Source: Flavobacteriales bacterium
GTDB taxonomy: Bacteria > Bacteroidota > Bacteroidia > Flavobacteriales_D > Crocinitomicaceae
Assembly: GCA_947475095.1 (NCBI GenBank)
Contig: CANJLG010000004.1
Span: forward strand, 1 to 64,000
Length of the DNA stretch: 64,000 nt
Direction of reading: 5' to 3'
Shown: piece by piece, positions 46,415 through 51,134 of the stretch
How positions within the stretch are numbered: the stretch's first letter is position 1
How the letters are laid out: every line of letters starts with the position of its first letter
Notes under the pieces: generated by a model
Seen by the model: the letters and a program-made list of their open reading frames with translations, nothing else
What the model was told of the DNA's origin: nothing
The model's database searches: none
Made by a program: the position numbers and the translations under genes

Positions 46415-46819
46415 ATGAAAGATATCGAAACCAAGGCTGATGTTGAAAAATTAATCACTTTATTTTATGGTAAAGTTGTTAAAGATGCTAGCCTATCTCC
46501 ATTTTTCGCCAACATAGATTTGGAAAAACACCTGCCGCACATGATTCACTTTTGGTGTTTTGCCCTCCTTGACGAACCCGGATATACGACCAATGTGGTA
46601 GAAAAACACCTACACATGCCATTAAAAGCAATACATTTTAGTACTTGGCTACAGCATTTCAACCAAACCGTAGATGCCCTTTTTATCGGTGAAAAAGCAG
46701 AGGCCGCAAAACAAAGAGCTGCCCTTATTGGGTGGACTATTCAAAGTAAAGTTGAAAAGAAATTGACATTAACCGCTAGCCTCGGTACATTCCTCCCTTC
46801 GGCCGGAACACTCGGCTAG
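46415..46819 (+). CDS. Truncated haemoglobin (group III-like globin), C-terminus formed by a repeat element
   Basis: FYGKVVKDASLSPFFANIDLEKHLPHMIHFWCFALLDEPGY; last codons ASLGTFLPSAGTLG* lie inside repeat unit 1. Confidence 0.85.
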   Translation: MKDIETKADVEKLITLFYGKVVKDASLSPFFANIDLEKHLPHMIHFWCFALLDEPGYTTNVVEKHLHMPLKAIHFSTWLQHFNQTVDALFIGEKAEAAKQRAALIGWTIQSKVEKKLTLTASLGTFLPSAGTLG

Positions 46820-47030
46820 CTCACAACAAGCTTATCGAGTGATTCCGCTCTCTCGATATAATCGCCCATGGCGACCACTCGATTGGCGGAATAGTATCGA
46901 GGTAAGCACTCGGCTAGCTCACAAAAAGCTGATCGAGCGCATCTCGACTTCGCTCGATGTGCTCTTGAAAGTGGATCGAAAGCAGCTTATCGAGTGGGCA
47001 CAGCTTGCTGGGGTTGTATCGAGAGAAGCG
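46774..47030 (+). repeat. GIY-YIG-associated modular repeat, unit 1 (257 bp)
   Basis: cgctagcctcggtacattc...gctggggttgtatcgagagaagcg; shares modules with units 2 and 3. Confidence 0.9.
46935..46964. other. Hairpin in repeat unit 1
   Basis: gagcgcatctcgacttcgctcgatgtgctc. Confidence 0.75.
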
Positions 47031-47103
47031 TAATATTCACTATGAAAATTTCCTTAACAAACAATTCAAATTTTTTGTATCTTACTAAGATGAACTTAAT
47101 ATA

Positions 47104-47391
47104 ATGGTGTGTCACATGTATATCTTAATTTGCGGAGACGGAACTTACTATACCGGAAGCACTCGTAATTTAGCACGAAGACTAATGCAACATCAATCTG
47201 GTACAGGAGCTATTCACACAACAATGCACCAACCCGTAGACTTGATTTATTCAGAAGTGTTTTCTAGAATTGACCATGCGTTTTATCGCGAAAAACAGGT
47301 TCAACGGTGGTCTCATGATAAAAAGACTGCTCTTATTAAAGGAGAAATTGAAATATTAAAGATGTTGGCAAAGAAAGATTTCAAGCGCTAG
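47104..47391 (+). CDS. GIY-YIG nuclease family protein (solitary)
   Basis: MYILICGDGTYYTGSTRNLARRLMQHQSGTGAIHTTMHQPVDLIYSEVFSRIDHAFYREKQVQRWSHDKKTALIKG; alternative start at 47116; stop codon inside repeat unit 2. Confidence 0.93.
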   Translation: MVCHMYILICGDGTYYTGSTRNLARRLMQHQSGTGAIHTTMHQPVDLIYSEVFSRIDHAFYREKQVQRWSHDKKTALIKGEIEILKMLAKKDFKR

Positions 47392-47612
47392 CCTCGTCCG
47401 GCGCTTGCCGAGTGATTCCGCCATCTCGATACAATCGCCTATGGCGACCACTCGATTGGCGGAATAGTATCGAGGTCAGCACTCGGCTAGCTCACAACAA
47501 GCTTATCGAGCGCACATCGAGTCCGCCTAGTCGGACTCGAGGCGCTCTTGAAAGTGGATCGAAAGCAGCTTATCGAGTGGCCACAGCTTGCTGGGGTTGT
47601 ACCGAGAGAAGC
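47386..47612 (+). repeat. GIY-YIG-associated modular repeat, unit 2 (227 bp)
   Basis: cgctagcctcgtccggcgcttgccgag...gctggggttgtaccgagagaagc. Confidence 0.9.
47508..47547. other. Hairpin in repeat unit 2 with a different stem sequence
   Basis: GAGCGCacatCGAGTCCGcctagtCGGACTCGaggCGCTC. Confidence 0.8.
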
Positions 47613-47616
47613 AAAT

Positions 47617-47785
47617 CGCTAGCCTCGGTACATTCATCCCTTCGGTTGGAACACTCGGCTAGCTCACAACAAGCTTATCGAGCGCATCTCGACTTCGCTC
47701 GATGTGCTCTTGAAAGTGGATCGTAAGCAGCTTATCGAGTGGCCGCAGGTTGCTGGGGTTGTCCGCCTGGGCGGACGAGAGAAGC
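47617..47785 (+). repeat. GIY-YIG-associated modular repeat, unit 3 (169 bp, lacks the central module)
   Basis: cgctagcctcggtacattcatcccttcggttggaac...gctggggttgtccgcctgggcggacgagagaagc. Confidence 0.9.
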
Positions 47786-47789
47786 ACCC

Positions 47790-50700
47790 CTACTTCAATC
47801 CCATCATTTTCTCAAAAGCATCTTTGATATGGCGCACCGGCTCGATTACCAAGCGCAGCTTATCATTGTTTTGTACAAGGCGGTAATCTTTGCCTATGCT
47901 CATGATTTTGTTGAGTAATAAGGTAAACGTTTCTGTTTCGTAAAATGAAGATTGTGGATTCGAAATAAAATACCCCACTAATTTTTCACTTTTAATCACT
48001 AAGCGCTCCATGCCTAACTCTTGGGCCAACCAACGTAATTCAAAAGAAAACAGGAGCTCCTTTGCGGCTTTGGGTAAAGGTCCAAAACGATCCACTAAAT
48101 CTACTGAGAAACGATCTAACTCTTCTTTGTTTTTTAAATTATCAAGTGCCTGATATAAACTAAGCCGTTCCGTTACATTATTTACATAATCATCTGGAAT
48201 ACGAACTTCCATATCTGTTTCAAAAATACAATCGCTTACAAAAGACCCAAAGGTATCGGTTTGTCTATCGTCAAATAATTCCTTAAACTCGGTGTCTTTT
48301 AATTCTTGCATGGCTTCATTCAAGATCTTTTGATACATTTCAAAGCCAATCTCAGAGATAAACCCACTTTGTTCTCCCCCCAACATGTTACCAGCCCCTC
48401 GAATGTCTAAGTCTTTCATCGCGATATTGAAACCTGCTCCTAAATCTGAAAATTGAACTAATGCTTCTAAGCGTTTGCGAGCCTCGGAAGTTAAGAGGCT
48501 AAATTTGGGAGCAATAAGGTAACAAAATCCTTTTTTATTTGAACGGCCTACCCTGCCGCGAAGTTGGTGAAGATCACTCAATCCAAATTGATTAGCATCG
48601 TTGATAATAATCGTATTTGCATTAGAAATATCAATCCCGGATTCGATTATGGTAGTCGCAATCAGCACATCATATTTACCATCGATAAAGTCCATCATCA
48701 CTTTCTCTAACTGTTTACCATCCATTTGCCCGTGACCAATAGCGACGCGAACACCAGGACATAGGCGCTGAATCATTCCAGAAATTTCTTTTATATTGGA
48801 CAAGCGATTATTCACAAAAAACACCTGTCCACCTCGCGTAACTTCGTAAGCAATAGCGTCGCGTATAGTCTCTTCGTTAAAAGAAATCACCTCTGTAAGT
48901 ACCGGTTGTCGGTTCGGTGGTGGCGTATTGATGATGCTCAAATCGCGTGCTCCCATCAATGAAAACTGCAACGTTCGTGGAATTGGCGTTGCGGTAAGTG
49001 TTAATGTGTCAACAGAGGTTCTTAATGTTTTTAATTTATCTTTCACCGAAACACCAAATTTCTGCTCTTCATCAATAATCATCAAGCCCAAATCTTTGAA
49101 CTTCACCTTTTCAGAAACCAAGGCGTGGGTACCAATGAGAATGTCAATTTTACCACTGGCCAACTTCTTTAACGTTTCACTTGTTTCTTTCGCCGATTTA
49201 AAGCGGTTAATATAATCAACAGTACATGGAAAATCTTTTAGACGCTCATTAAAACTTCGGTAATGCTGCATGGATAAAATAGTAGTTGGAACTAAGATCG
49301 CCACTTGTTTACTATCACACACGGCTTTAAATGCGGCCCTAACAGCGACTTCTGTTTTACCGAAACCGACATCTCCACAAATCAATCGATCCATGGGTGT
49401 ATTGGATTCCATGTCCTTAATTACATCTAGACTTGCCTTATTTTGATCGGGCGTATCTTCATACATAAAAGAAGCGGTCAATTCATTCTGAAGGTAATTA
49501 TCTTGCGAAAAAGCAAAGCCTGGCTGTGATCGGCGTTTTGCATACAATTGTATTAGATCAAAGGCTAATTCTTTGATTTTTTTCTTGGTTTTATTCTTTA
49601 ATGTAGCCCACGCTTGAGTGCCTAATTTATTCATTTTGGGTACCGCACCATCTTTTCCAGTAAACTTAGAAATGCGATGAAGTGAGTGAATCCCTACATA
49701 CAATACATCACCATCTTTGTATAAAAGCCGAATAGCTTCTTGTGGTTTTCCGTTAACATCTATCGTTTCTAATCCCGAAAACTGCCCAACACCATGGTCG
49801 ATATGTGTTACATAGTCTCCCTTTTGAAGATTGTAAATTTCTTTTAAGGTGAGTGCTTGTTTGGTTTGACGGAACCCTTCTTTTAAGCGAAAACGATGGT
49901 AGCGATCGAAAATTTGGTGATCAGTATAGCAAACAATTTTTACAGTTGGGCAAACAAATCCTTCTTGAAGCGCAAAGTCCATTGGCTCAAAATTAACCCC
50001 TCCACCAATATCCTCGAATACTTGAAAAAGGCGTTCAATTTGCTGAGCTTGATTGGAAAAAATAATATTTAAAAACCCACTTTCTTGCTTCTGCAATAAA
50101 TCTGCTTTCAACAAATCAAAATTCTTATTGAAACTAGGCTGCGGTAAGAAATCGAAAGTTATTTTATCGCTAGCTGGAAAATGATAGACCGGCCCGAATT
50201 CGATAATTGAAAGCGCAGCTAGGTTGTCCTTTAATTCCTTTGGTGATAAAAAAAGGGCTTCAGGGGCAGCATCAAGTGGACTAATCGTCATTTTTTTAAA
50301 GGCGTCTTTTGCTTTTTCAAACCCCTTGTGCAAGGCATCTTCGAGACGTTCGTAGGAACTTAGCCAAACTTTAGTAGACATCCCTAGGAAGGAAAAGAAG
50401 GATCCTATCCCGTTTTGAACCATTTGACCTTGAATATTTGGTATGATCATCAAGGACACATGCTTGGATAGTGACAATTGATTAGCAGCATCAAAGGTTC
50501 TAATAGATTCTATCTCATCGCCGAAGAATTCTATACGGAACGGAAAATCATTCGAAAAAGAAAAAACATCAACAATGCCACCACGTATAGCAAACTGACC
50601 CGGTTCATAAACAAAGTCGACACGTTCAAACTGGTATTCGATGAGTAAATCATTCAAGAAATCTATGGCATATGATTTACCTACCTCCACGCGAAAGGTA

Positions 50701-51134
50701 TTTTCTATTAAGTTTTGTTGCGTTGGAACCTTCTCGAACAGGGCTTCTGGATATGTAATTACCCAGGTGTTATCGCCTTTAGAAATTCTAGCTAATACTT
50801 CTGCTCTAGCGACCACATTAGCATTATCAATTGCCTCTACTTGATACGGTAAGCGATAGGATGACGGATAAAAATGTACTCGTTTGTCTGATGGATATAG
50901 TCCCTGAAGATCATTTAAAAAATAAGCCGCTTGTTCTTTATCGCCAAGAATAAAAATATGATTCCCCGGTACTTGATCGGCTACAGCAGTCGCGCAAACA
51001 CTTGTTGCAGAACCGACCAAACCAGACCAATGGACGCGTGCCTTAGGTCGAAACAATGCTTGAGCAGTTTGTTCGACAGGGGAATATGATTTAAAAACAT
51101 GCAGGAATTGCTTGCGTTCCATTCGTGGCTGCAA
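47790..51134 (-). CDS. mfd: Transcription-repair coupling factor
   Basis: GDVGFGKTEVAVRAAFKAV, LTATPIPRTLQFSLMGARDLSIINTPPPNRQP, QLRGRVGRSNKKGFCYL. Confidence 0.96.
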   Translation of the reverse strand: MQPRMERKQFLHVFKSYSPVEQTAQALFRPKARVHWSGLVGSATSVCATAVADQVPGNHIFILGDKEQAAYFLNDLQGLYPSDKRVHFYPSSYRLPYQVEAIDNANVVARAEVLARISKGDNTWVITYPEALFEKVPTQQNLIENTFRVEVGKSYAIDFLNDLLIEYQFERVDFVYEPGQFAIRGGIVDVFSFSNDFPFRIEFFGDEIESIRTFDAANQLSLSKHVSLMIIPNIQGQMVQNGIGSFFSFLGMSTKVWLSSYERLEDALHKGFEKAKDAFKKMTISPLDAAPEALFLSPKELKDNLAALSIIEFGPVYHFPASDKITFDFLPQPSFNKNFDLLKADLLQKQESGFLNIIFSNQAQQIERLFQVFEDIGGGVNFEPMDFALQEGFVCPTVKIVCYTDHQIFDRYHRFRLKEGFRQTKQALTLKEIYNLQKGDYVTHIDHGVGQFSGLETIDVNGKPQEAIRLLYKDGDVLYVGIHSLHRISKFTGKDGAVPKMNKLGTQAWATLKNKTKKKIKELAFDLIQLYAKRRSQPGFAFSQDNYLQNELTASFMYEDTPDQNKASLDVIKDMESNTPMDRLICGDVGFGKTEVAVRAAFKAVCDSKQVAILVPTTILSMQHYRSFNERLKDFPCTVDYINRFKSAKETSETLKKLASGKIDILIGTHALVSEKVKFKDLGLMIIDEEQKFGVSVKDKLKTLRTSVDTLTLTATPIPRTLQFSLMGARDLSIINTPPPNRQPVLTEVISFNEETIRDAIAYEVTRGGQVFFVNNRLSNIKEISGMIQRLCPGVRVAIGHGQMDGKQLEKVMMDFIDGKYDVLIATTIIESGIDISNANTIIINDANQFGLSDLHQLRGRVGRSNKKGFCYLIAPKFSLLTSEARKRLEALVQFSDLGAGFNIAMKDLDIRGAGNMLGGEQSGFISEIGFEMYQKILNEAMQELKDTEFKELFDDRQTDTFGSFVSDCIFETDMEVRIPDDYVNNVTERLSLYQALDNLKNKEELDRFSVDLVDRFGPLPKAAKELLFSFELRWLAQELGMERLVIKSEKLVGYFISNPQSSFYETETFTLLLNKIMSIGKDYRLVQNNDKLRLVIEPVRHIKDAFEKMMGLK

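Follow-up and report, generated by a model that had tools for sequence, protein, structure and literature searches.

Repeat units and a solitary nuclease gene beside mfd

The DNA analysed here, referred to as the window, is a 64-kb stretch of a draft genome. Between its globin open reading frame (ORF; 46415-46819) and mfd (47790-51134, minus strand) there are three repeat units, with a small nuclease gene between the first two. One descriptor accounts for each unit as imperfect hairpins, in which an outer stem is followed by YTCGR, an inner sequence, CTCR and the closing side of the outer stem. The features are as follows.

46774-47030, no strand: repeat unit 1, a mosaic of four hairpins
46775-46820, plus strand: hairpin gctagc-CTCGG-tacattcc...ggaaca-CTCG-gctagc, with 6 of 6 outer-stem pairs
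46830-46907, minus strand: long hairpin with outer stem gcttac/ataagc and an attccgc...gcggaat palindrome inside
46928-46986, minus strand: hairpin gctgct-TTCGA...CTCG-atcagc, enclosing a short hairpin at 46937-46962 (plus strand)
46985-47029, minus strand: hairpin gcttct-CTCGA-tacaaccccagcaagctgtgccca-CTCG-ataagc
47104-47391, plus strand: solitary GIY-YIG nuclease of 95 aa (PF01541, E = 3.9e-15), between units 1 and 2
47386-47612, no strand: repeat unit 2, the half-hairpin gctagcctcg and then hairpins at 47403-47480, 47501-47569 and 47568-47612 (all minus strand)
47617-47785, no strand: repeat unit 3, a hairpin at 47618-47663 (plus strand), a short hairpin at 47682-47707 (plus strand) and a diverged remainder

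The three units and the GIY-YIG ORF had been placed here by an earlier sequence-only reading, and both were confirmed at these positions; the modules common to units 1 to 3 are 82-95% identical. That reading had also described the repeat as a modular palindromic unit. The palindromes are real, including attccgc...gcggaat, which is the interior of the hairpins at 46830-46907 and 47403-47480, but the repeat is not a single unit of 250 bp: it is a mosaic of short hairpins built around a defined core. Seven of the nine stringent descriptor matches in the window are concentrated in the 1-kb repeat and nuclease stretch, a clustering greater than would be expected by chance. A search of Rfam with positions 46500-48200 gave no match at E <= 1.

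The stop codons of the globin and nuclease ORFs are both supplied by repeat sequence. For the nuclease, the TAG stop is at the very start of unit 2 (gcTAGcctcg). The globin ORF extends into unit 1, thus its final residues and stop codon are repeat-derived, and insertion of the repeat has probably altered the C-terminal end of the globin. Several homologs of the nuclease (L098, L103, L177, L181 and others) have C-terminal tails, such as FGSAQP, that run on into the hairpins; here too the repeats contribute to predicted proteins.

In the GIY-YIG domain, conserved Tyr, Arg and Glu residues have a catalytic role. The nuclease has the PF01541 match and these three residues, Y16, R26 and E63, are invariant in the 16 homologs compared, as are Y6, G18 and H30. 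Its nearest solved structures by sequence are the UPF0213 proteins BH0048 (1zg2, E = 3.9e-19) and EF2693 (1ywl, E = 8e-16). Searches of NCBIfam and PADLOC with the nuclease gave no match. The gene is intergenic and is probably not within an intron or intein.

Hairpins around homologous nuclease genes

A scan of genome contigs identified more than 540 related stretches, the best 80 of which form the first set of loci. This set spans nine phyla, with 65 of the 80 loci in the Bacteroidota. The left and right flanks have 13-mers in common at 37 of 68 usable loci, compared with 3.5% of same-contig control windows. On reading, the flanks were seen to have lineage-specific stems and a common core. 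The simple pattern TTCGA N3-7 GCTCA is present at 39 of the 80 loci and a wider regular expression at 67, against 10% of controls; both were replaced by the descriptor, in which a conserved YTCGR...CTCR core is enclosed by a variable outer stem. A core of this kind implies that the hairpin has an internal T-C/C-T mismatch.

With no more than one stem mismatch, the descriptor is matched within 400 bp of the gene at 76 of the 80 loci, compared with 3 to 8 for control cores, and with zero stem mismatches at 55, compared with 0 to 1. The swap and revcomp-each control cores are equivalent on the two strands, thus there are five distinct controls and not six. Random placements match in 5.4% of cases. 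Hairpin density is 5.9 per kb at 0-249 bp from the gene and 0.06-0.34 per kb from 750 bp to 3 kb.

Since the descriptor was derived from reading these first 80 loci, the evidential weight is carried by a second set, made up of 40 further loci from a phylum-level search, none of whose DNA matches the first set at >=90% identity. Hairpins are present at 16 of the 16 loci where the nuclease scores at least 110 bits and at 13 of the 15 scoring 84-110 bits, a total of 29 of 31 for the window-type nuclease group. Below 84 bits, where the genes belong to other GIY-YIG subfamilies, a hairpin is found at none of the nine. The pairing of GIY-YIG genes with hairpins is strongly supported. A small spurious ORF lying by chance beside low-information repeats would, like this one, be short and stand alone. 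Against such a coincidence are the strong Pfam match, the invariant catalytic-type residues and the abundance of related stretches, and it is refuted by control cores and placements far below the observed frequency and by the independent locus set; it is barely credible.

The hairpins also carry a fixed tag, which differs between two clades. In clade 1 the tag is N5-C, or C6: 97% of hairpins have C as the sixth base past CTCR, a position outside the five-base stem used for hairpin selection. In clade 2 the bases at +4 to +7 past CTCR are T, G, A and C at 89-100%. C6 is found at 104 loci and TGAC at 14. On the nuclease tree, which is built on few columns and leaves many forks open, C6 and TGAC are separated by one change if only loci with either label are counted, and TGAC requires four changes if unlabelled rows are included. 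A covariance model was built from 41 short hairpins, and in its alignment the inner pair covaries, being C-G in 29, G-C in 12 and unpaired in 0; the outer-stem pairs had been selected for and the inner pair had not. The clade-specific tags suggest that recognition may be by sequence rather than by structure alone.

Distribution of the repeats and the nuclease across genomes

Repeats confined to this locus would have counted against the sequence-only reading. They are not so confined, since repeat pieces give 28 matches across ten contigs of the window's draft genome (G000), which is 98.7% complete. In the stretches that were read, the copies are just past gene ends. They are therefore dispersed short imperfect palindromes, mostly intergenic, and they flank a single-copy nuclease gene, as is characteristic of REPs. 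RAYT-type genes exist in the Bacteroidetes (PMC6006769), so a RAYT or other transposase could in principle move the repeats, with the GIY-YIG gene associated only incidentally. However, a search of the window's 98.7%-complete genome for RAYT (PF01797) gave no match, and an incidental association would have to recur at 29 of 31 independent loci; this explanation is highly improbable.

With the covariance model, for which the matches per genome are lower bounds because no more than 52 candidates were scored, hairpins were found in 13 of the 14 Bacteroidota genomes in which the nuclease match reaches 105 bits or more, in 20 of 67 with weaker GIY-YIG matches and in 10 of 66 with none. The difference between the first and last of these groups has a Fisher p of 4e-8, related genomes not being independent. 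Three genomes, G044, G161 and G194, have 23-38 model matches, again as lower bounds, and no strong clade-1 nuclease match: G044 has at least 27 with no nuclease match, and G161 at least 23 with a weak match only. The GIY-YIG gene of G194 adjoins a different hairpin type, GTCATTTCGA...GAAATCTC.

Within the genus the nuclease is sporadic and most species are without it. Repeats of the window's own type are present in G000, G018, G207, G006 and G021 among 41 genomes, and G007 has one short match. The query repeats were taken from nuclease-bearing genomes, thus the generic covariance-model count is the fairer test. Genome G207 was chosen on its repeats alone and was then found to have two related nucleases, one of which is flanked by the second repeat type of the window's genome. 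G006 (80% complete) has repeats and no nuclease match; G021 (89% complete) has repeats and a weak GIY-YIG match of another kind, at 30 bits. Relatives without the nuclease may thus keep repeats, as G006 and G021 do, both genomes being incomplete; orphaned copies would be expected to behave in this way.

Also in the window's genome is a second GIY-YIG gene (G000:C9:73525-73778; L045 2025-2307), broken by stops and a frameshift. Hairpins of a further type, GGTGCC-TTCGA-...-CTCA-GGCACC, flank it on both sides and follow the same design. An intact relative, L156 in G207, shares both these hairpins and the start of the gene downstream. A GIY-YIG fragment is found at the end of contig C5 of the same genome (L046). 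In G021 a different GIY-YIG gene (L163; G021:C14:52101-52340) is near a tRNA-like sequence, and on its opposite side there is a repeated piece resembling a tRNA 3' end.

The nuclease could also be an enzyme that processes or maintains hairpins. It would resolve the hairpins or cruciforms of repeats that had spread by other means, and its location among them would preserve the linkage. Such a role would fit with elements that, as imperfect palindromes, can extrude as hairpins, and with a nuclease that is sporadic and not essential. It is harder to reconcile with the lack of the nuclease from most species of the genus and with the clade-specific tags, which suggest recognition of sequence over structure alone, and we regard it as quite improbable.

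In the sister species, G018, the nuclease and its flanking repeats are beside a SulP-type transporter and not mfd. The nuclease ORFs have 93% nucleotide identity, compared with 80% protein identity for the mfd C-terminus, and the segment common to the two genomes is the cassette with its repeats, at unrelated loci. A second marker gene was sought in the incomplete G018 genome and was not found, so the argument for horizontal transfer has mfd as its one marker. At the mfd locus of G207 and G021 the hairpins are kept and the nuclease is absent; in G207 a 46-bp match corresponds to the start of unit 2 together with about the last 20 bases of the nuclease ORF. G006 has repeat matches just past mfd. 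The sequence-only reading had proposed that empty sites be sought in relatives, and here the outcome was negative: among the 30 loci scanned there is no precise empty site and no target duplication at the mfd locus. Repeats are kept there in near relatives and are in none of the more distant relatives whose sequence was read, and a globin beside mfd is in no other genome among these 30 loci; there is thus no clean junction.

GIY-YIG enzymes act as homing endonucleases, and the gene could be a homing parasite that cuts within hairpins of separate origin and inserts itself there, making the repeats its target and not its product. The bracketing of the gene by repeats, the common cassette at unrelated loci in G000 and G018, and the repeats that outlast the gene in genomes without it are all consistent with this. 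It leaves unexplained, however, why hairpin density peaks at the gene and why nuclease-free genomes are mostly without hairpins. The tag also follows the nuclease clade, although a target preference could give the same result. On balance, homing into existing repeats is unlikely.

Relation to REPs and other GIY-YIG systems

The explanation that we favour, and consider probable, is a REP-like system of two components, in which a GIY-YIG nuclease takes the place of RAYT. The earlier suggestion, that a GIY-YIG nuclease and dispersed palindromic repeats form a pair comparable to REP/RAYT, is upheld by the recurrence of the pairing, the dispersal and co-occurrence, the clade tags and the finding of no RAYT. 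Counting against the system are genomes rich in hairpins but with no or only a weak nuclease match, such as G044 and G161, and the failure to find an exact empty site or target duplication. In such a system each dispersed element would be a short imperfect hairpin, made up of a variable outer stem, a YTCGR...CTCR core and a fixed tag at one end, and their partner would be the small solitary nuclease, its gene inside a cluster of its own hairpins. For recognition, cleavage and the route of spread, we infer that the nuclease would most likely recognise the tag and core of a hairpin that is probably extruded or single-stranded, and would nick or cut near the tag. GIY-YIG enzymes are not known to carry out strand transfer, thus spread would need host repair. 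Host repair or recombination may copy the hairpin into intergenic sites elsewhere, at times together with the nuclease cassette, and where the nuclease is lost the hairpin copies would persist as orphans. The nuclease would in this way mobilise or maintain the repeats.

GTAG REPs are short imperfect hairpins with an internal mismatch and an end tag, dispersed and clustered at their nuclease, with enzyme and repeat co-evolving (PMC8266576). The system in the window resembles this GTAG REP/RAYT (TnpA-REP) system: the internal mismatch of its hairpins is conserved, the end tag is fixed, copies are spread between genes with a cluster at a single-copy nuclease gene, and enzyme and repeat co-evolve. 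The enzyme is GIY-YIG (PF01541), however, and not an HuH (Y1) transposase, clade 1 has the tag N5-C and clade 2 the tag TGAC, and the core differs. With both the HuH enzyme and the GTAG tag missing, the system is not classed as REP/RAYT.

The catalytic domain is held in common with GIY-YIG homing endonucleases, and self-spread is possible for both, but the gene in the window is probably outside any intron or intein, and its partners are hairpins in many copies, not a single gene site. The likeness to UPF0213 proteins is that of the closest solved structures. No earlier description of a pairing between GIY-YIG and REP-type hairpins was found in the open-licence literature.

CGTC-tagged REPs were reported in a 2013 survey (Di Nocera et al.) to "apparently lack a dedicated transposase", only GTAG-type REPs being tied to an enzyme (PMC3733652). 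They too are tagged hairpins, and related GIY-YIG subfamilies adjoin them. GTC-A...T-CT hairpins are beside other GIY-YIG subfamilies at 13 of 22 Bacteroidota loci, with 51 matches near the gene, a few of them weak, and 7 in 87 kb further off; control tags give 0-7 near the gene. In a plasmid collection, 10 of 15 loci, mostly from Proteobacteria, have GTC-A...T-C hairpins within 500 bp of a GIY-YIG gene and six control tags have zero. At the other five there are CCTC-, TGTC- or variant-tagged hairpins, seen by eye and unscored. In Azospirillum lipoferum AZO_p3 (L249 3986-4279) a GIY-YIG gene and CGTC hairpins are between sufB and sufC, the suf order being otherwise continuous. On a Planktothrix agardhii plasmid (L257 3989-4273) a GIY-YIG gene has an MmeI-type restriction enzyme on one side and the DISARM helicase drmA on the other.

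It is possible, though we hold this tentatively, that GIY-YIG enzymes are general partners of several REP superfamilies including the CGTC REPs, and drive their spread by an undescribed GIY-YIG route. REPs are repeats found widely in bacteria. The pairing provides a concrete candidate enzyme for a class of hairpins in the Bacteroidota and their relatives, and related proteins supply one for the CGTC class as well; whether or not the enzyme spreads the hairpins, the question is reduced to a simple cleavage assay. The hairpins in the window differ from CGTC REPs in being without the unpaired CGTC/TGTC/CCTC tag and AT-starting stem, with another tag and another core in their place. If the enzyme does spread these hairpins, they would form with it a REP-type system whose nuclease has an unrelated fold.
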